64,000 nt of DNA from an uncultured Clostridia bacterium (GTDB taxonomy: Bacteria; Bacillota; Clostridia; Christensenellales; Borkfalkiaceae), in assembly GCA_904373255.1 (NCBI GenBank), contig CAJFFD010000002.1, positions 1 to 64,000 of the forward strand. The letters run 5' to 3'. Made by a program: the position numbers and the translations under genes. The notes under the pieces are model-generated. The model did no database searches and was not told where the DNA came from. It was given only the letters and a program-made list of their open reading frames with translations. Below, in pieces: positions 2,518-14,496 of the stretch (position 1 is the first letter of the stretch; each line of letters opens with the position of its first letter).

Positions 2518-2895
2518 TCAATGCAAATCTTCCTTTTTCTCAACAGCAGCTTTCAGCTTTTGAAATGAGTCGGCGCTGATTGAATGTTCTATATTGCAGG
2601 CGTCTTGTTCAGCTGTTTTCGGATTTACGCCAGCTGCTATAAGTTGATCGGTAAAAAAACAATGCCGCTCATAAATTTGTTCGGCTATTAGTTTTCCTTT
2701 ATCTGTTAAAACAAGACAACCATCTTCCTGCTTAATAAGGTGCCCTGAATTTATAAGCACTTTAACAGCACGACTGACGGAAGGTTTTGTAAATCCCAAT
2801 TGTTCGGCAACATCAATACTTCTGACGGTGCCGCATCTCTTTTGAACGATAAAAACGGCCTCTAAATAGTCTTCCATCGATGAGGTCAAAGACAT
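2518..2895 (-). CDS. DtxR/MntR-family metal-dependent transcriptional repressor
   Basis: MSLTSSMEDYLEAVFIVQKRCGTVRSIDVAEQLGFTKPSVSRAVKVLINSGHL; the TSSMEDYLEAI-type N-terminus is typical of the family. Confidence 0.9.
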   Translation of the reverse strand: MSLTSSMEDYLEAVFIVQKRCGTVRSIDVAEQLGFTKPSVSRAVKVLINSGHLIKQEDGCLVLTDKGKLIAEQIYERHCFFTDQLIAAGVNPKTAEQDACNIEHSISADSFQKLKAAVEKKEDLH

Positions 2896-2907
2896 GAATC
2901 ACCTCCA

Positions 2908-4644
2908 TTATTTAGCCAACTTCCAACCGATGGCTTCCTTTCTCGCTTTAACAAAATCAGAATACAGCCCATTTTGTTGTATCAATTCGTTATGAGTACC
3001 GCGTTGTACGATATGTGTATTGTTAAGTACAAGTATCTGATCTGCATTACGAACTGTTTTTAAGCGATGAGCTATCATAATAATAGTTTTATCGTGAGTT
3101 AAGGCTTCAATGGCTCTTTGCAGTTCGTCTTCATTTTCTGGATCAACACTGCTCGTTGCTTCGTCTAAGATGATAATAGGCGCATCTTTTAATATAGCGC
3201 GAGCAATTGATATGCGTTGTTTTTCCCCACCTGACAGAGTTCCGCCTCCTTCACCAATGATAGTGTTGTAACCATCGGGAAGGGCAACGATAAAATCGTG
3301 ACAACAAGCTTTTTTTGCTGCTTCAACTACATCTTCATGAGTTGCGTCCGGGCAGCCAAATTTAATATTGTTTTCGATTGTATCAGCAAAGAGATAAACG
3401 TTTTGGAAAACCATCGAAATATTTTTCATAAGGCTATCCAACGTATAATCACGAACATCTATTCCGCCAATTGTAATTTTACCGCCGTTTACATCCCAAA
3501 AACGGGCAATTAAATTACACATCGTTGTTTTCCCAGAACCAGAGGGCCCAACAATAGCCGTTGTCGTTTTTTCCGGAATGGAAAAACTAACGTTGTCTAA
3601 AATTTTGCGCGTAGAGTAGGAGAAATCAACATTTTCAAACTCAATATCGGTAGATTTTGGCGAAATAGAAGTTCCATTCTCATCCATAATCGGAGTATTA
3701 TCTACAGAGTTTGCAGTTTCGATAGAGGATGCCAACATTTGCAACATAGTGATTTGACTTCCCGCGCTTTCTAAGCTGTTAAAAACGGTAAAGGATAGAA
3801 TCACAAACAGCACCCCAAAAACAATAGTAAATACACCTTGCGTATAGAGAAAGAGCGTCATTGCCAAAAGAATTACGCTAAATAGGCGAATCACAAACTG
3901 TTGTAAAGCGAGATACGGCGCCAGCGAATAAACCAAATTCAAATTGTTCTTATTGCTGTTATAAATAGCCGAAGTAATCGACTTGGAACTCTTTTTTTCA
4001 AAGCCGAACGACTTTACAATACTCATACCTTGAATAAATTCCAACACGGATTCTACTAATCCGCGCTGAGCATTCTGACGTTTTGTTGCTGTAGCAGTAG
4101 ATTTTCTTGTGGCTATTTCAGTTACGATTAAATAGCAAACTACGCCAAACAAAGCGATAAGCCCAAGCTGCCAATTAAAAATTAAAAGGAAAAGAATCAA
4201 TACAATAGAATTGAAAAATCCGCCGATTATATTGACAAGAGCAACAGGAGCGGCCCCCTCAACATCACCTAAAGTGGTCGTAACAATACCTGTAATCGTC
4301 CCGATATTGTTTTTGTTGAAGTATCCCATAGGGATATAGCGCAACCTATCTCCTATAGATATTCTTTTATCTGCTACCATGCCATAACCAACGACGGTTT
4401 GCTCGTTCATGGAAAAATATGAAGCAAAAATACGCCCGGCAACAGACAACACCATCATTCCTAACGATAGCCAAACAGAGGTGAGACTATGATCGTTAGA
4501 AACCAGCGCGTCAATGATAAAATAAAGGGCGGCAAATTGAAGAGATGCAAAGATGCCATTCAAGAATGAAAAAACCAACGATTTGATCAGGAGCCCTTTT
4601 CGTTTGCCTGCAAAAGCAAAAATTTTCTTTAATGTCCCAAGCAT
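2908..4644 (-). CDS. ABC transporter, fused permease/ATPase (YbtQ/IrtB-like)
   Basis: N-terminal TM region, Walker A GPSGSGKTT, signature LSGGEKQRISIARA, Walker B IIILDEATSSVDPENE. Confidence 0.9.
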   Translation of the reverse strand: MLGTLKKIFAFAGKRKGLLIKSLVFSFLNGIFASLQFAALYFIIDALVSNDHSLTSVWLSLGMMVLSVAGRIFASYFSMNEQTVVGYGMVADKRISIGDRLRYIPMGYFNKNNIGTITGIVTTTLGDVEGAAPVALVNIIGGFFNSIVLILFLLIFNWQLGLIALFGVVCYLIVTEIATRKSTATATKRQNAQRGLVESVLEFIQGMSIVKSFGFEKKSSKSITSAIYNSNKNNLNLVYSLAPYLALQQFVIRLFSVILLAMTLFLYTQGVFTIVFGVLFVILSFTVFNSLESAGSQITMLQMLASSIETANSVDNTPIMDENGTSISPKSTDIEFENVDFSYSTRKILDNVSFSIPEKTTTAIVGPSGSGKTTMCNLIARFWDVNGGKITIGGIDVRDYTLDSLMKNISMVFQNVYLFADTIENNIKFGCPDATHEDVVEAAKKACCHDFIVALPDGYNTIIGEGGGTLSGGEKQRISIARAILKDAPIIILDEATSSVDPENEDELQRAIEALTHDKTIIMIAHRLKTVRNADQILVLNNTHIVQRGTHNELIQQNGLYSDFVKARKEAIGWKLAK

Positions 4645-4656
4645 AAATAAACCTCC

Positions 4657-6405
4657 TTACGCCTCATCTCTTGAACCGATATGGGCACGCCACATATCCT
4701 GATATAATTGACAAGTCTTCAATAGTTCGTCGTGTGTACCCTGAGCTTCAATGTTACCGTTATTTACAACAACGATATTGTCCGCTCCTATGATTGTCGA
4801 AAGGCGATGAGCAATGACGATTAACGTTTTTCCCGCAGTCAACGCTGAAATAGCTTTCTGTATGATGGCTTCATTTTCAGGATCGATAAAAGCCGTAGCT
4901 TCATCAAGAATAACGATAGGTGCATTCTTAAGCATAGCTCGGGCAATGGCTATACGTTGCCTTTCGCCGCCGGAAAGTTGTGAACCGCTGCTCCCAACAA
5001 TGGTTTCATAACCATTATCCAGCCCACGAATAAAACTATCACATCCGCTTCTAATGGCAACATCTTTAACTTCTTCGTCTGTCGCATTCGGATTTCCCAT
5101 GCGTATATTTTCCATAACACTTCTATTGAACAAATAGTTATCTTGAGAAACATAGGAAATCTGCTCGGCAATTTGGAATAAAGGAATATCAGTTAATTTG
5201 TAACCGCCTAATGAAATGTTTCCGCTGGTTACATCCCAAAATCCTGCAATGAGTTTTGCTATTGTTGATTTTCCGGAACCGGACGGACCCACCAAAGCTG
5301 TCATTGTTTTAGGACGAATGGAAAGATCTATGTTGTGCAAAACTTCTTGTTCATTGTCATACGAAAAACTTACCTGATTCAATTGAATTGACAAGTCATT
5401 AAGTTCTACGGGATTTTCAGAGTGGTTTAACTCATTAGCATTTAATAGGCTACATATTTCCTCTGTGTTTTTTCCAAGCATTGATAACGAGCCTGTGAAG
5501 GAAAAAGCTTCCATTATAGGTCCTACAAGTCCCAAAGAAAAAATGACAGCTGCCAAGAAAACCATTGTTGTGATATTGCCTGTTAGCCATAATGCCATCC
5601 CTCCAGGCAAAACACATAAGAGAACAGAAGGTATCACCGCATTGTAAGAGCACATCGTCTTTTGGCTGCTTGCCATCCAATCAATATAGTAGTCAGCATT
5701 TCCGCGTACTGCGTCAGCATACTTTTTATAAGAGCCCGCCGACTGACTGAATGTTTTGACTACTTCTATACCGCCAATATACTCAACCACGGCATCAGAC
5801 ATTTTCTTGCTGGCAGCCAAAGCGCCCGCGCCTTTTTCTGCATAATTACGCATTCCAAAAGACATGATGATTAGTCCAATGAAAAGAGTAACCAACGAAA
5901 AAAGCGCCATACGCCAATCTAAAACAAACAGGTAAACTATAATAAAAAGCGGGACCAATATATTAGCAGTCATCTCAGGCAGAAGGTGGGCAAATGGAAC
6001 TTCCATGCTTTCAATTCTGTCAACAATAATGCTCTTGTAATAACCGGAAGGGGTGTCTAGAATCGTTCCCATAGGAACTTTAGTTAATTTATTGACCACT
6101 CGTTCTCGTAAGTCACGTAATGTTTTATAAGCAGCATTATGTGAAATAACAGTAGATAAATTTGAGAACAATACCTTCCCCAAATATCCTGCCAAAGCTA
6201 TTCCGCATACAGCTAAATAAGGCAGGAAAGACTTTTCGCCGGCGAATAACTTTGAAATGATGTTAATAACACAAAAATACGGGATCATTTGACAGGCAAC
6301 TCCCAAAATTGCCAATACAATGCTCAAAATGAATTTCCCGTGATGAGCTTTGCCCCATCCCCATAATATACCCAACGGGGATTGCTTTTTTTGTTTTTCC
6401 ATCAA
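4657..6405 (-). CDS. ABC transporter, fused permease/ATPase (YbtP/IrtA-like)
   Basis: Walker A GPSGSGKST, signature LSGGERQRIAIARA, IVILDEATAFIDPENE; adjacent to and paired with 2908-4644. Confidence 0.9.
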   Translation of the reverse strand: MMEKQKKQSPLGILWGWGKAHHGKFILSIVLAILGVACQMIPYFCVINIISKLFAGEKSFLPYLAVCGIALAGYLGKVLFSNLSTVISHNAAYKTLRDLRERVVNKLTKVPMGTILDTPSGYYKSIIVDRIESMEVPFAHLLPEMTANILVPLFIIVYLFVLDWRMALFSLVTLFIGLIIMSFGMRNYAEKGAGALAASKKMSDAVVEYIGGIEVVKTFSQSAGSYKKYADAVRGNADYYIDWMASSQKTMCSYNAVIPSVLLCVLPGGMALWLTGNITTMVFLAAVIFSLGLVGPIMEAFSFTGSLSMLGKNTEEICSLLNANELNHSENPVELNDLSIQLNQVSFSYDNEQEVLHNIDLSIRPKTMTALVGPSGSGKSTIAKLIAGFWDVTSGNISLGGYKLTDIPLFQIAEQISYVSQDNYLFNRSVMENIRMGNPNATDEEVKDVAIRSGCDSFIRGLDNGYETIVGSSGSQLSGGERQRIAIARAMLKNAPIVILDEATAFIDPENEAIIQKAISALTAGKTLIVIAHRLSTIIGADNIVVVNNGNIEAQGTHDELLKTCQLYQDMWRAHIGSRDEA

Positions 6406-6420
6406 AATAACCTCCCTTGT

Positions 6421-7908
6421 TTATTCAAAAAAGCTCAATAATCGTTGACGATCTTCGGCTTCTTGAAGTTCATAATGCTCCTTAAGGTGTCCGTCCTCGA
6501 TATGTATAACGCAATCACAACACCGTAAAATAAATTCCGGATCATGTGTGACAACAAGGATCGTTTTACCCGATTCTGCCAGCTTATTGATTGCATCGGC
6601 TACCCGCCTCATATGAAACAAATCAAGTCCGCTTGTAGGTTCGTCGAAGAGAATAATAGGACGTTGCGATGCGATTGCCGAAGCAATAGCTACACGCTGT
6701 TTTTGGCCACCGGAGAGACCCATTGGATGGCTTTCTTTCATCTCTGATAAATCCATTTCCGTGAGAATAGAATCTACGGTTTGTTCGTTCTCCTTCGGCA
6801 TACTGATGAGAAGCTCTTCCTTGACGCTTTCAGTAAATAATTGATGGTTTACGTCCTGCATCACCATATAACATAGCTTTAGCCGTTGTCTGCGATTATA
6901 GGTTTTACCATCATGTATGACGTTGCCTTTACAGCGTTTTTCCAAACCACAAAGACATCGAGAGAAGGTAGTTTTACCAGCCCCGTTGTGTCCTATAACT
7001 GAAACAACCTTTCCGGGGAAAAGTTCGATTTTATCCAGAAATAAAGTTTCTTTTTTGCTTTTTTTATAAGTAAATCTAAAGTTGTCAACGACCCAAGGTG
7101 AGCCAACGGAACATCTCTTTTGTGTGTCTAATTGACTTAGAGTATCCAAAACAAGCGGCCTGAGTCCCATCTCTTCAAGCTGAGTAGATGAAAACTCGGC
7201 AAATTCTTTACCTATAAAATCGCCTTCAATTTGCCCATCTTTCAAATAGAGGACTCGATCCGCTAAGTCGTATAAGTAATAAAGACGATGCTCTGCAATG
7301 ATGATCGTCTTGTTTTGCGCTTTAAGAGTAATAAGCAATTTACGTAAATCACTTATGGCAAACGCATCTAAATTTGAAGACGGTTCATCAAACACAAATA
7401 TTTCAGGCTCGATGGTCGCCGCAGAACCACAGGCAATCTTTTGTTTTTCTCCGCCTGAAAGAGAGAAGATGCTTCGATCCATCAAATCGGTTAATTTTAG
7501 CTGCTCGGCAACTATTTTTACTCGATTAAGAATTTCATCTTTCGGTAAACCATGATTTTCAGGGCCAAAAGCAAGCTCTGACGTTGTATCGACGTTAAAG
7601 AATTGACTTCTCGGATTTTGAAATACAGAACCAACTTTTTCTGAAATATCAAAAAGTGAAAGACTTTTATATTCCTTCCCGTCCAACAAAACTTGTCCTG
7701 ACAATTCCCCATCATAATAATGGGGTATCAACCCGTTAAACAATCTTGTAAGTGTTGTTTTTCCGCAACCTGATGCCCCACATAATAATACGAAGGTGCC
7801 ATTTTCAATTTTGCAATTGATATTTTTTAATGTTCCGCCTTTGCATGAAATAGTAGCTTTTTCTTGATCGCCATGATAAGAATAGCTGACATCAATACAT
7901 TCGATCAT
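6421..7908 (-). CDS. ECF transporter ATP-binding protein with two ATPase domains
   Basis: Two Walker A motifs (GASGCGKTT and GHNGAGKTT) and two signatures (LSGGEKQKIACG, LSGGQKQRVAIA). Confidence 0.9.
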   Translation of the reverse strand: MIECIDVSYSYHGDQEKATISCKGGTLKNINCKIENGTFVLLCGASGCGKTTLTRLFNGLIPHYYDGELSGQVLLDGKEYKSLSLFDISEKVGSVFQNPRSQFFNVDTTSELAFGPENHGLPKDEILNRVKIVAEQLKLTDLMDRSIFSLSGGEKQKIACGSAATIEPEIFVFDEPSSNLDAFAISDLRKLLITLKAQNKTIIIAEHRLYYLYDLADRVLYLKDGQIEGDFIGKEFAEFSSTQLEEMGLRPLVLDTLSQLDTQKRCSVGSPWVVDNFRFTYKKSKKETLFLDKIELFPGKVVSVIGHNGAGKTTFSRCLCGLEKRCKGNVIHDGKTYNRRQRLKLCYMVMQDVNHQLFTESVKEELLISMPKENEQTVDSILTEMDLSEMKESHPMGLSGGQKQRVAIASAIASQRPIILFDEPTSGLDLFHMRRVADAINKLAESGKTILVVTHDPEFILRCCDCVIHIEDGHLKEHYELQEAEDRQRLLSFFE

Positions 7909-7917
7909 ATAAGTTGG

Positions 7918-8643
7918 TTATCCTATAATCCAAAGAATAATTTGAAATACTAAACCGGCTAGGCAAATCAACAGAAATAAAATGTCTTGGATATGCAAAC
8001 CGATTTTGCAGATATTTGTCCTTTTGACCGGACCTCCCAATCCTCTTGTTAAGGACGCAGCAGAAAGTTCCTCGCCTATTTTAACGCAGCACATTAACAT
8101 GGGAACAAACCGGTACTCTAAAATAGCACCGGCTTTTCCTCCACGTAAACGAATGCCTCGCATTTTCATAGCATCCCCAATAGCCTTCCATTCTTCCATT
8201 ACAGTAGGGAAGAATCGAAACATCACAGCCATGGGAATAGTAATTTGCCGAGGAATATGTAAGCGTTCCATTCCAGCAATAAATTCGCTTACGGTTGTTG
8301 TTGCTACAAAATAATATGCAATGGCAATACTTGGGCTAAAATAAAGAGGCAACAAAACAATTATCATCAATAAATAGCCCGGTATTCCAGGAACATATGG
8401 TACAGCGAAGAATTGCAGACATAGGCAGGCAAGAAAAGTTACGGCATAAATCGCTGCACTTTTCCACATTTTTGAAAAAAGGAAAAAAAGCAAAGGCAAC
8501 AATGCCGGAGTGTAATATAGAGTAGTTTGAAAAGAACCGCCCAATATGATTATGACGAGGGTGAACAGAACCGCCATTTTAGTCCGCGGATCAAACTGTA
8601 TTCCTGTATTATTCTTTTTGCTTGCCAGCAACTCAGAAGTCAT
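7918..8643 (-). CDS. ECF transporter transmembrane protein EcfT
   Basis: Multi-TM protein with EcfT-type IPRQITIPMAVMFRFFPTVMEEWKAIGDAMKMRGIRLR. Confidence 0.88.
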   Translation of the reverse strand: MTSELLASKKNNTGIQFDPRTKMAVLFTLVIIILGGSFQTTLYYTPALLPLLFFLFSKMWKSAAIYAVTFLACLCLQFFAVPYVPGIPGYLLMIIVLLPLYFSPSIAIAYYFVATTTVSEFIAGMERLHIPRQITIPMAVMFRFFPTVMEEWKAIGDAMKMRGIRLRGGKAGAILEYRFVPMLMCCVKIGEELSAASLTRGLGGPVKRTNICKIGLHIQDILFLLICLAGLVFQIILWIIG

Positions 8644-9225
8644 TTACATAATCTCCGCGCGTTCAAAATGCTTCTTGAATATTTTTCTGCCAATGATGCC
8701 GCCTACAATACCGGCAACAAAAGCGCCTACGATCAAGATGGGCAGGATCCAATCAGGCATAAAGCTCATAAGTGCATCGGCGTAATCAGCTCTGCCAAGT
8801 TCGACCAAGTTAGCATAATAACTATCGCGGAAGAAAATGATGGGAATGAATGCACCAATGGTCCAGATGGAAAAAACACCGTGTGCTAAAATTTCCATTT
8901 TTGCACTCTTATAGCCCGACCCCTTCAATATAAATTCCGTAATTAGAGCAAATACGACACAGGTGATGATGCACCAATATCCCATACCAGTCAAAAGCAT
9001 AAGAACACCAATCAAAAGACCGGTAATAGTCAACATTCCGAACTTTTTAATTTTTGTGAAGTATAACATCATAGGAATGCCGCCGATCAACGGTACCAAT
9101 ACCGCCGTCAGAGGGATAAAAATAGGTATAAAACCTAATAGCGATACGATGAAGTTCACTACGAAATAAATGGCGGTATAAATACCAATACTGATGAAAT
9201 CTTTGCCTTGCAATCTGTTACTCAT
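8644..9225 (-). CDS. MptD/Trep_Strep-family ECF transporter S component
   Basis: Hydrophobic 193-aa protein directly upstream of EcfT/EcfA; MSNRLQGKDFISIGIYTAIYFVVNFI. Confidence 0.8.
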   Translation of the reverse strand: MSNRLQGKDFISIGIYTAIYFVVNFIVSLLGFIPIFIPLTAVLVPLIGGIPMMLYFTKIKKFGMLTITGLLIGVLMLLTGMGYWCIITCVVFALITEFILKGSGYKSAKMEILAHGVFSIWTIGAFIPIIFFRDSYYANLVELGRADYADALMSFMPDWILPILIVGAFVAGIVGGIIGRKIFKKHFERAEIM

Positions 9226-10880: not shown

Positions 10881-11060
10881 ATGCTGCGCAGTATCAAAAA
10901 GGCTTTCGATATGGTCAAGCAGGAAGATCCGGATACGGCGATCACCGTACACACCATCCGTATGTGGTGTAAGGAAGGCAAGATAAAGTGCCTGACCGCC
11001 GGCAACAAAATTCTGGTCGATGTGCAGAGCCTGATGGACTATATCGCTATCAAGGAGTAA
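10881..11060 (+). CDS. Excisionase-like small DNA-binding protein
   Basis: 59 aa MLRSIKKAFDMVKQEDPDTAITVHTIRMWCKEGKIKCLTAGNKILVDVQSLMDYIAIKE; RBS GAGGAGGTG; directly upstream of the integrase. Confidence 0.8.
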   Translation: MLRSIKKAFDMVKQEDPDTAITVHTIRMWCKEGKIKCLTAGNKILVDVQSLMDYIAIKE

Positions 11061-11063
11061 CAC

Positions 11064-12461
11064 ATGGCTTATTTCAAAATCACACAGAACAAGAAAGGTG
11101 AATTTCAGGCTAAAATTCAGGTAAGCGGCAAAGACGTATCAACAGGCAAAAGCAAAGTTTTTACCATGCGCGTCTATAATACCGACAATCTCACCGAAGC
11201 GAAATTCAAAAAGCAGGTCGAAAAGACAGCCATCTCTTTTGAAGAAGAGGTGCTGCGGGCGTATCGGGACGGCAAAGAGCAGCTCCGCTCGAAGGTGCTG
11301 ACCTTTGCCGAACTGATGCGTGAATGGAAAGCGGGCATCAAGTCCGGTCTTTCCATCAACTACTATGAACGCGCCGAAAAGGTCGAACACATCTTCGGCG
11401 AGTTTCTGGAACAGAACGGGCTGGCAGATAAACCAATCTCCGCCATCACCGTGCGTGACGTGCAGAGGTTTCTGTCGTCGTTCACGACGTCCGGGTATAA
11501 AAGCTCGCCGAAAGCACGCCTCAAAAAGCCGCTCCCCAAGAAGGTGAATTTCCGGCAGCTGGCGCGGGAGAATGTCATCGACCGCTGCGCCTCATATAAC
11601 CTTAATAAAAAGGGAGCGAACATCGAAAAGGAAACGGCGGAAATGCTCTGCGACCGCTGCGGGCTTGCCTATGACGAATACTTTGAAACGGTCATCGTCG
11701 AAAAGGCGTATGCCGCCGAAACGATCAAAGGCTACCGCCGTATCCTGCGCGCGCTGTTCAACGAGGCCGTCCGCTATGAGTGGATCGCCAAAAATCCTGT
11801 ATGCGCAACCAAAGTCGGCGCCGAGAAAGGCAATACCTCTTTGAGGCCCGTTGCCGAAAAGGAAGTGTTTACCGTAAAGGAAGCCCGCGCCTTCCTGCGA
11901 AAGCTGGACGAGGATATACCGGATGACGAAATGCACAAGAAAGTCGTTTTGAAGTTTATCCTTCTGACAGGCGTCCGCAACGGCGAGATGTGCGGGCTGA
12001 AATGGTCTGACATCGACTTTGACAAGAAGGTCGTACACATCAAGCGCAACAGGCTGTATTCCAAGCAGTTCGGCTACTACGAAAAGGAGCCGAAGACAAA
12101 GACGTCCGTCCGCGACATTCCGAAGAAGTACATGGACTGGTTCAGGCTCGCCGACGAGGAGTTTGACGAGCACTTGGATGAATACTACCTCGCCGTCAAC
12201 GTCTATCGGCAGCCGCTCTACCCGCAGTCCATCGGGCAATGGCTGACCTTCTACGAGCGCAAATGGGGCATGAAGCACGTGACCTGTCACGGGCTGCGGC
12301 ATACCTATTGCAGCCTTCTTCTGGCGCAGAACGTCCCGATCCAGACAGTAAGCAGGTATATGGGACACAGCGACTCGACCGTCACATTGAAGGTTTACTG
12401 CCACTTCATTCCCGATACGCAAGACGTGGCGATCTCGGCGTTAAGCCGCCTGACGGATTAA
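11064..12461 (+). CDS. Site-specific tyrosine recombinase/integrase
   Basis: Catalytic motifs TGVRNGEMCGLKW, HGLRHTYCSLLL, MGHSDSTVTLKVYCHF. Confidence 0.95.
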   Translation: MAYFKITQNKKGEFQAKIQVSGKDVSTGKSKVFTMRVYNTDNLTEAKFKKQVEKTAISFEEEVLRAYRDGKEQLRSKVLTFAELMREWKAGIKSGLSINYYERAEKVEHIFGEFLEQNGLADKPISAITVRDVQRFLSSFTTSGYKSSPKARLKKPLPKKVNFRQLARENVIDRCASYNLNKKGANIEKETAEMLCDRCGLAYDEYFETVIVEKAYAAETIKGYRRILRALFNEAVRYEWIAKNPVCATKVGAEKGNTSLRPVAEKEVFTVKEARAFLRKLDEDIPDDEMHKKVVLKFILLTGVRNGEMCGLKWSDIDFDKKVVHIKRNRLYSKQFGYYEKEPKTKTSVRDIPKKYMDWFRLADEEFDEHLDEYYLAVNVYRQPLYPQSIGQWLTFYERKWGMKHVTCHGLRHTYCSLLLAQNVPIQTVSRYMGHSDSTVTLKVYCHFIPDTQDVAISALSRLTD

Positions 12462-12490: not shown

Positions 12491-12570
12491 CTGGATAGCA
12501 AAATTTTCTGGTATAACCCGATTTTTATACCAATTTTGGAAAATCTCGCCTAAATATTGTTGTGGAAAAG

Positions 12571-12596
12571 AAAAAGACCACAATATCTTGTGGTCT
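12571..12596 (-). terminator. Terminator of tRNA-Arg (minus strand)
   Basis: Minus strand AGACCACAA GATA TTGTGGTCTTTTT immediately 3' of the tRNA. Confidence 0.65.
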
Positions 12597-12599
12597 GAA

Positions 12600-12674
12600 T
12601 GGTACTCCCGGCGGGAATCGAACCCACAACGGCCCCTTAGGAGGGGGCTGTTATATCCATTTAACTACGGAAGC
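12600..12674 (-). tRNA. tRNA-Arg (anticodon CCT), CCA encoded
   Basis: Minus strand GCTTCCGTAGTTAAATGGATATAACAGCCCCCTCCTAAGGGGCCGTTGTGGGTTCGATTCCCGCCGGGAGTACCA folds as a cloverleaf: acceptor GCTTCCG/CGGGAGT, anticodon stem GCCCC/GGGGC, T-arm GTGGG/CCCGC. Confidence 0.93.
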
Positions 12675-12832
12675 ATATTGAATTTTATTGCACGGAATGA
12701 AAATTAGCGCTCGAAAAAATATTATACCAAAATTTATACCAAGTTTTTTTCGTCCCGTAAAAAGCAGCGAAAATACCGCGCTTTTGCCCCAAAACCGTGC
12801 ATTTGAAGCAATAACTTGTGGATAGAACACTG

Positions 12833-12872
12833 CCTTAGGAGGGGGCTGTTATATCCATTTAACTACGGAAGC
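12833..12872 (-). repeat. 40-bp exact duplicate of the 5' half of tRNA-Arg(CCT), ending just past the anticodon loop
   Basis: 12635-12674 and 12833-12872 are identical (ccttaggagggggctgttatatccatttaactacggaagc). Confidence 0.93.
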
Positions 12873-13107
12873 GTGTTCATTTCCGGTACAATAATACGAA
12901 GAAAAGGGCATCTCGTTTACCGAACAAAAATACTATACTATATTTTTTTAAAAAAAGCAAATCATTTCAGAAAGAAAAATACCGTCGATAAAATATTTTT
13001 AAAAAGCGCTTGAGGAAAAAATAAAAAAGCAAAAGCAAAAATTTGCTTTTTCCGAATAAATACGCTATAATATTCGTTGGATAGACTTGATTATTCAGGG
13101 AGGTTGT

Positions 13108-14496
13108 ATGGACAAAATCAAATTGCTTCAGGCTCGGCGGGCCGGCGTTCTGGCCGCCGGTTCTCAGATTCGGAAGGCAATTTCTGCTCTCGTCGATGCG
13201 GACAGTTTTGTTGAGTTGTCCGGGTTCAGTTTCTCGAAAAACGATTTTTATGACGAAGAAACTGCGGGCGAAGGCGTCGTTACAGGATTTGCTACTGTTG
13301 CCGATTATCCCGTATATATTGCGGCGCAGAATTTTGAAACGCTGAATGGCGGCGTGAGCGCCGAAAACTGCGCGAAAATATTGCGGTGCCTGGAATTGGC
13401 GGAAAAAAATTCTCTGCCTGTGATTTATATTCTGAACAGTCTCGGGGTACAGATCGGGGAAGGGGTTACTGTTTTGGAGGGTTTGGCTTCCGTCCTCTTA
13501 AAGTCGGCTAAATTGCATGGCGTCGTTCCGCAGTTTGCCGTCGTAAACGGAGAGGTGTACGGGCAGAGCGCCTTGCTTGCGGCTTGTTCCGACTTTTCTT
13601 TCTTTATGAAAGATGCCGTCCTTGCGGCGGACAGTCCCTTCGTAATCTCCGCAAAAAGCGGTAAAAATTTGCCGAAAGAGGAAGTCGGCGGAGCGAACGC
13701 GCTTACGAAAGCAAATATCGTTTCATTCGAAGCGGAAGGAATGCAGGATGTGCGCACTCAAATCGGCAAAATTCTTTCTCTCCTTCCGGAATACAGCGCC
13801 CCCGTTGTGGAAAACGGGGCGGATCTGAACCGTGCAGTACCGGCTCTCAATGAGGCATGCAGCGCAGACGCCCTTATCGAGGCGGTATTTGACGCGGATT
13901 CCTATGTCGAATGCGGCAAGTCCTTTTCTCCGGAAGTGCGTTGCATTCTCGGGCGCACGGGCGGGATTGCCGTCGCGGCTGTCGTTTTCGACAGCGAAGC
14001 GGGCGTTTCCTTAAACGCGAATAATATTGCGAAGATCTCTTCGTTTGTGGAGTTTGCCGCGTATTACAATCTGCCGTTCGTGACGTTTGTCGATACGCTC
14101 GGAATGCAGGCGGACATCGCTACTGCGGATAGCCTTGCGATGAAGAATGTATTCAAACTTATGGAGTCCTATGACCTTTTGGAGAACGCAAAAATTGCGC
14201 TCGTCTATAAAAAGGCGGTAGGGCTCGGCTATACGCTCTTTGCAGCCAAGTCGATGGGGTTCGATTACAGCTACGCCTTCGCGAATGCAAAAATTGCTCT
14301 GTTTGATGATGCTAAAGGGGCGGAAATCGAATTTTCCGCGGAGAAAAATGCGGATAAGCAAAAACTTGCGGCAAGATATGCGGACGAAACCGCCGATCCG
14401 ATCAATGCGGCGAAAAATGGCTACATCGATAACGTCATCGAACCGCAGTTTGTAAAACAATATCTCATCGCTTCGCTGCAGATGTTGTTAAAGTGA
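13108..14496 (+). CDS. Carboxyltransferase subunit, MmdA/12S-like, with degenerate active-site motifs
   Basis: RBS GGGAGG; crotonase-like carboxyltransferase layout (LGVQIGEGV, VTFVDTLG...) in an operon with biotin carrier, OadB and OadA. Confidence 0.8.
   Translation: MDKIKLLQARRAGVLAAGSQIRKAISALVDADSFVELSGFSFSKNDFYDEETAGEGVVTGFATVADYPVYIAAQNFETLNGGVSAENCAKILRCLELAEKNSLPVIYILNSLGVQIGEGVTVLEGLASVLLKSAKLHGVVPQFAVVNGEVYGQSALLAACSDFSFFMKDAVLAADSPFVISAKSGKNLPKEEVGGANALTKANIVSFEAEGMQDVRTQIGKILSLLPEYSAPVVENGADLNRAVPALNEACSADALIEAVFDADSYVECGKSFSPEVRCILGRTGGIAVAAVVFDSEAGVSLNANNIAKISSFVEFAAYYNLPFVTFVDTLGMQADIATADSLAMKNVFKLMESYDLLENAKIALVYKKAVGLGYTLFAAKSMGFDYSYAFANAKIALFDDAKGAEIEFSAEKNADKQKLAARYADETADPINAAKNGYIDNVIEPQFVKQYLIASLQMLLK

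Follow-up and report, generated by a model that had tools for sequence, protein, structure and literature searches.

Probable integration of an element into the anticodon loop of tRNA-Arg(CCT), with a complete tRNA-Arg(CCT) carried beside the integrase gene, in uncultured gut Clostridia

A complete tRNA-Arg(CCT) gene and two half genes

The window analyzed here is a 64,000-nucleotide stretch of contig C2 from an uncultured Clostridia bacterium. Its single tRNA gene is a tRNA-Arg(CCT) with an encoded CCA at positions 12600 to 12674 of the minus strand, called in agreement by ARAGORN and Rfam (RF00005, 59.9 bits) and followed by an intrinsic-terminator-like hairpin (12575 to 12596, minus strand). 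It is also the only complete tRNA-Arg(CCT) found assembly-wide, in an assembly that is 73% complete and from which other tRNAs reading AGG may be missing. Convergent with the tRNA lies a gene for a 465-aa tyrosine integrase (11064 to 12461, plus strand; Pfam PF00589, E = 3.5e-23; PHROG integrase, E = 1.8e-58), so that the placement of a complete tRNA-Arg(CCT) beside an integrase by the first-pass annotation holds. A 59-aa HTH_17 protein encoded at 10881 to 11060 (plus strand) is a putative excisionase, with weak matches to Pfam HTH_17 (E = 3.3e-4) and NCBIfam excise (E = 0.0055) that both fall below the curated cutoffs.

Pfam and NCBIfam assign the genes at 2518 to 9225 (minus strand) to an MntR/DtxR-like regulator, two ABC exporters, and ECF-type ABC/CbiQ/Trep_Strep transporters. 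By position, these genes would be cargo of the element, as the contig starts inside it. The stretch from 7918 to 9225 was noted for a Trep_Strep membrane protein, CbiQ, a duplicated ABC ATPase, and two ABC exporters, with the MntR-like regulator over them. Other genes in the window encode an AraC regulator, a sigma factor, and a phage-type repressor (Pfam/NCBIfam). On the opposite side of the tRNA, the host flank contains a carboxyltransferase gene (13087 to 14496, plus strand; Pfam), which is a conserved neighbor of tRNA-Arg(CCT) in the genus and adjoins the tRNA in many relatives. A putative host tRNA promoter, TTGCTT-17-TATAGT, can be read at 12932 to 12960 (minus strand), and relatives have a similar TTTGCTTTTTT...TATAGTA box ahead of the tRNA.

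A BLAST search of the 75-nt tRNA against its own genome returned exactly three strong places: the complete gene, a 5' half, and a 3' half. The 5' half, at 12833 to 12872 (minus strand), matches tRNA positions 1 to 40 exactly (40/40, E = 1.2e-14) and thus does not reflect chance similarity. The first-pass annotation had described this copy as lying 198 bp from the complete gene and ending abruptly; indeed, the two starts are 198 bp apart with a gap of 158 bp, and identity stops at position 40, two nucleotides beyond the anticodon loop. The missing 3' half, for which a search had been proposed, is present on another contig (G000:C90:5474-5517, minus strand), where positions 32 to 75 match 44/44, and a chance origin was rejected for both halves on the strength of these exact matches. 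The halves overlap by 9 bp, CTCCTAAGG, which corresponds to the 7-nt anticodon loop plus 2 nt and forms a common core at both junctions (12833 to 12841 on the minus strand in the window). Neither junction rebuilds a tRNA: the 5' half runs into arm DNA, the 3' half on C90 is preceded by arm DNA, and ARAGORN called no tRNA on C90. The two junctions lie on different contigs and are linked by sequence, not physically; the 5.4 kb beyond the C90 half, on the host side, gave no syntenic match among the loci compared.

We estimate a probability of about 93% that an element inserted at the anticodon loop of the host tRNA-Arg(CCT), split the gene, and carries a complete replacement tRNA between its arm and its integrase gene. 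A tyrosine integrase would recombine the 9-bp core CTCCTAAGG of the element site with the anticodon loop of the host tRNA, leaving the host 5' half at 12833 to 12872 and moving the 3' half to the other end of the element, on C90. Neither junction would rebuild a tRNA because the element site past the core is integrase-arm DNA and not tRNA sequence. The complete tRNA of the element would then take over the lost function. We infer that the integrase encoded in the window catalyzes this reaction. The replacement tRNA is probably expressed from the conserved host promoter at 12932 to 12960 by transcription that reads through the half gene and the arm.

Host DNA, element DNA, and attachment arms

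The boundary between host and element was located by comparison with genome G018, another Candidatus Borkfalkia species. Identity between the two genomes is 95% in the 158-bp segment, 100% in the tRNA, and 91% at the integrase end, compared with ∼70% in the host flank (carboxyltransferase gene). In G018, the host half adjoining the arm has decayed to GCCTCTGCCGTTTTGTGGATACAGCATCCCCCTCCTAAGG. The mobile block thus begins at the core, so that the 158-bp segment and the complete tRNA are part of the element and the half copy is part of the host, an assignment of the half copy that also draws on its 40/40 identity and its partner on C90. Of the explanations offered by the first-pass annotation, a host 5' half next to an element with a full tRNA and 158 bp of arm DNA is the one supported by the discovery of the far half and the travelling arm. 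The other, an earlier or tandem insertion, is rejected for the window because a single insertion accounts for every part. Nor is the 12675 to 12872 segment an older chromosomal feature, as had been considered, since in the element-free relatives G023, G015, and G003 the promoter leads directly to a single tRNA without this segment.

The same relatives bear on another reading, in which the half copy arose by local tandem duplication of the tRNA gene or belongs to a tRNA pseudogene array independent of the element. Degenerate tandem tRNA-Arg copies do occur at this locus in genomes G016, G017, G008, and G020. However, these copies contain a hairpin insert in the T-loop and lack both the CTCCTAAGG-GYTCTATCC junction and the arm, and these arrays were rejected as the source of the half copy. 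The half copy is moreover truncated exactly at the core with its complement at the far end of the element, and the three element-free genomes have no half copy. We consider duplication extremely improbable.

Several other repeats were seen near tRNA genes. Genus-wide, degenerate tRNA copies contain a ∼60-nt insert with two hairpins (CGCGAGC..GACGCTC and GCCGAGGGGACCCCTTYAGGGGTTTCGGC) within or close to the T-loop; it was seen upstream of tRNA-Arg at L040, L043, L044, L041, and L055 and also at G000:C165:161-224, G000:C53:738-778, G002:C4, and G004:C15. Arrays bearing this insert have a period of ∼141 to 165 bp (exactly 141 in G016) and lie upstream of a working tRNA-Arg(CCT), or beside tRNA-Leu in other genomes; the insert looks like a small palindromic mobile element that favors tRNA T-loops. 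In G020 and G009, 21-nt tRNA 3' ends (ATTCCCGCCGGGAGTACCA) recur every ∼171 bp downstream of the tRNA, with a structured spacer, CGAAATAACGTGACGCGATCGG, between them (L041, 5839 to 6030; L042, 1 to 21; L066, 140 to 160). A 1.7-kb insertion in G006 (L037, 8810 to 10572) separates a complete tRNA-Arg(CCT) from a 19-nt copy of its 3' end, which points to another kind of element, one that acts at the T-loop region and restores the tRNA 3' end.

Returning to the insertion at the anticodon loop, the 158-bp segment (12675 to 12832, minus strand) between the core and the replacement tRNA represents the P'-side arm of the element attachment site, as judged from G018 identity and repeat geometry. It includes TTGGTATAAATTTTGGTATAA, and the 448 bp upstream of the C90 3' half include TGGTATAAATTTGGTATAAAATCGGTATAG. 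Two copies of a putative arm-type repeat, TTGGTATAA, form a 12-bp-spaced pair at 12734 to 12742 and 12722 to 12730 (both minus strand); a further copy (12525 to 12533, minus strand) and an inverted TGGTATAAC (12509 to 12517) can be read from the sequence, the former on the integrase side of the tRNA. A GGTATA repeat present in the P' arm, which has two repeats, recurs in three copies in the C90 arm. The same kind of repeat at both ends of the element fits the arm-type binding sites expected of a lambda-like integrase, and the repeats flanking the core accordingly appear to be such sites. A putative core-type site, TGGATATAACA, lies in the D-arm of the host half (12847 to 12857, minus strand) and is an imperfect inverted repeat of a putative opposite site, TGTTCTATCCA, in the element arm (12819 to 12829, minus strand). 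In general form, the core is followed by four bases and GYTCTATCC, an imperfect inverted copy of the D-arm TGGATA-AAC. A motif built on this layout, CTCCTAAGGNNNNGYTCTATCC, recovers the same junction in 40 stretches elsewhere.

The geometry of the arm is conserved to a greater degree than its letters. In nearly all families, a repeat pair with 12-bp spacing lies ∼91/103 nt from the core (+91, +103), and the best 12-bp-spaced self-match occurs at offset 91, with a mean of 6.8 of 9 compared to 3.0 overall (31 distinct arms). The repeat itself varies by family (GGTATAA, GGTTGTAA, GGTTAAAA, GGTTGCAT, or GGYACC). Such a pattern appears to suit integrase binding sites better than any gene. Promoters in the arms were not found above background, and neither were terminators; a TTGCAG-17-TATAAT sequence is present directly upstream of the tRNA in the second arm of L114. 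In nine other loci, the integrase gene ends 310 to 440 bp from the core and is convergent with the tRNA, as in the window.

Junctions, element tRNAs, and nesting in gut Clostridia

Scanning 84,980 species, with one genome each, for CTCCTAAGGNNNNGYTCTATCC gave 41 junctions in 40 stretches, nearly all from uncultured gut Clostridia. A tRNA-Arg 5' half was present on the upstream side in 35/41 junctions. Where at least 270 bp of downstream sequence was available, a complete same-strand tRNA-Arg(CCT) followed within 500 bp in 21/22 junctions, and the lone exception (L117), a nested insertion, is truncated by the end of its contig. The corresponding control frequency, for a complete tRNA-Arg(CCT) in random stretches, was 7/400. 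Within the genus of the window organism, 9/40 genomes had the junction and none had the reversed control pattern; a sample of 396 genomes from the order gave 6 with the junction and none with the control. The contigs of G001, G005, and G013 (L055, L059, and L060) break 15 to 116 bp past the core, which may reflect a mixture of integrated and empty or excised forms in the sampled population.

Most tRNA-site islands integrate in a different manner (PMC4383910), and under that mode, the complete tRNA would be composed of a host 5' half and an element 3' half, with the extra half as debris of an earlier insertion. The arrangement in G008, where a complete tRNA directly follows host leader DNA and adjoins a 95% identical integrase flank, speaks in favor of this mode. 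In that genome, the nearly identical flank comes after the complete tRNA without an arm or an extra half, which could represent a restoring version of the element or, alternatively, an arm that was lost when the two identical 40-bp halves recombined. Ordinary integration nevertheless does not account for a 158-bp arm that moves with the element, displays conserved integrase-arm geometry, and sits between the core and the complete tRNA in dozens of unrelated hosts. In addition, the complete tRNA differs from the adjoining host half in G021, G042, G045, G004, L113, and L134 and thus cannot be assembled from a host 5' half and an element 3' half.

The clearest of these cases is G042, which has both junctions on one contig, ∼21 kb apart, and therefore the whole element. 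The anticodon stem is AGCCC/GGGCT in its host halves and TTCCC/GGGAA in the element tRNA, each with 5/5 pairs; crossed host/element combinations pair at only 3/5, such that the host stem fully pairs only across the element. In G045, the host halves likewise match each other in full (5/5 and 7/7 pairs), whereas pairing with the element tRNA drops to 1/5 and 2/7, and host and element tRNAs of L134 have wholly different backbones. G039 is a weaker case, as its host halves pair 7/7 in the acceptor stem and only 2/5 in the anticodon stem. With this evidence, ordinary integration is very unlikely, although we regard it as somewhat less improbable than tandem duplication. The split host gene, the core, and the element-borne complete tRNA, like the arm geometry and the nested reuse described below, can be read at the level of sequence in these loci.

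A further possibility retains the same structure and treats the replacement tRNA as dispensable. A tRNA-Arg(TCT) could in principle read AGG, and with an incomplete assembly, the element copy might be neutral cargo beside another tRNA of this kind. Among nine distinct 75-nt element tRNAs, however, all 189/189 stem cells are paired and 10 pairs have changed on both sides; these compensatory changes across families give the element genes the appearance of working tRNAs. Orphaned host halves, on the other hand, decay (G018 and G004), and a complete tRNA was found at every assessable junction. Dispensability is thus unlikely, and we infer, with indirect support from this covariation, that the host needs the replacement tRNA.

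Although the window itself does not call for an earlier or tandem insertion, nested insertions of that kind occur in relatives at L131, L114, L105, L120, and L117. This pattern implies that each insertion broke the tRNA delivered by the previous one. Genome G044 contains two 3' halves 2.5 kb apart. In G045, units of ∼1.7 to 2.5 kb contain, besides a complete tRNA-Arg(CCT), only one to three small open reading frames (ORFs) but no integrase, and no PF00589 match was found on the contigs bearing these cassettes. At L145 and L162 (G045:C7, 25102 to 29076, and C18, 1420 to 3113), integrase-free cassettes lie in tandem, each equipped with a tRNA-Arg(CCT) of its own and the core junction; their small ORFs are uncharacterized and apparently encode membrane proteins. 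We tentatively propose an array-building system of gut Clostridia in which every incoming unit, the integrase-free cassettes among them, disrupts the resident tRNA-Arg(CCT) and brings a new one, which sustains the cell and offers the next landing site. The locus would grow like rings, as an integron-like platform with the integrase acting in trans, a proposal we hold as somewhat less probable than not.

Nature of the elements and relation to known systems

The complete G042 element encodes an HUH Rep, PcfJ, a YpsA-type SLOG protein, an N6-methylase fragment, and a MutS_I protein, and no structural PHROG match was obtained among the ORFs scanned of its 21 kb. A temperate phage is therefore not indicated, a statement that is firm only for G042 as the element in the window is incomplete. 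The elements appear to be integrative, possibly mobilizable, rather than prophages. In IMG/VR, the junction had no match and the integrase only a weak one. Another find was MT835493.1, a 57-kb record from the human gut labelled "Bacteriophage sp." (UNVERIFIED) (L159, 40961 to 48379). Its integrase is 56% identical to that of the window, and it shows the same layout, with a complete but different tRNA-Arg(CCT) and half of a host tRNA beside a reductase gene. We do not call this record a phage, as no structural gene was recognized among nine large ORFs.

The closest known system is tRNA-dependent lysogeny (Guerrero-Bustamante and Hatfull 2024, PMC10865867), in which the core is short, the tRNA is not rebuilt, and a phage tRNA of the same isotype is required, as demonstrated experimentally in mycobacteriophages. 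It was described for actinobacteriophages with tRNA-Lys, Ile2, and Leu; Lj965 of Lactobacillus johnsonii was named as a possible case, and the prevalence outside actinobacteriophages was stated as unknown (PMC10865867). The sequence-level features of this system are all present at the window locus: a tyrosine integrase, a core within the host tRNA (∼8 to 17 bp there and 9 bp here), no rebuilt tRNA, a complete tRNA-Arg(CCT) on the element (distinct from the host tRNA in G042, G045, G021, and G004), and putative arm-type sites flanking the core. In contrast to the phage system, the elements described here occur in gut Clostridia, use tRNA-Arg(CCT), lack recognized phage structural genes, and have their tRNA gene within the attachment region, with the arm on one side and the integrase on the other. 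They also insert serially into the tRNA that an earlier element brought, and some units are cassettes that lack an integrase. We thus call the window system, from its sequence, a probable tRNA-dependent integration of non-phage elements, with the term phage found not to apply for one complete element (G042). Related substitution of a host tRNA gene by an element-borne one has been reported for rhizobial prophages, with tRNA-dependent lysogeny cited (PMC11476347), but those prophages are from Alphaproteobacteria, and phiLM21-like prophages were later reported to show no such features (PMC12429752).

Standard tRNA-site islands restore a chimeric host/element gene (PMC4383910). The window element shares with Islander-type islands the tyrosine integrase, the anticodon-loop crossover subsite, and a tRNA fragment at the far end. 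It differs in that the element supplies the gene in its entirety, with the host 5' half left 158 bp upstream of it. The chimeric complete tRNA of a classical 3'-half-restoring island is absent, as the host 5' half is separate and the complete tRNAs of relatives differ from it. Judging by its stated filters, the 2-kb minimum of Islander would discard the pair of tRNA and half copy. The design of these elements also accounts for their expected misplacement by standard island finders.

The cassettes of G045 invite one more comparison. Integron gene cassettes form series of small units that have no integrase of their own and share a single recombination site, and the G045 cassettes resemble them in that array form. 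Unlike integrons, their core lies in a tRNA anticodon loop, the arms are lambda-like, each unit contains a tRNA, and no integron integrase is apparent.

What is new is the occurrence of this mode in non-phage elements of Clostridia, with the tRNA inside the attachment region and with nested arrays, where earlier cases were mainly actinobacterial phages. The same logic is now found in dozens of uncultured gut Clostridia and can be recognized straight from the junction. It offers a route for the repeated swapping of a bacterial tRNA gene for foreign versions, and, through nesting, it keeps the order of successive insertions at a single locus on record.
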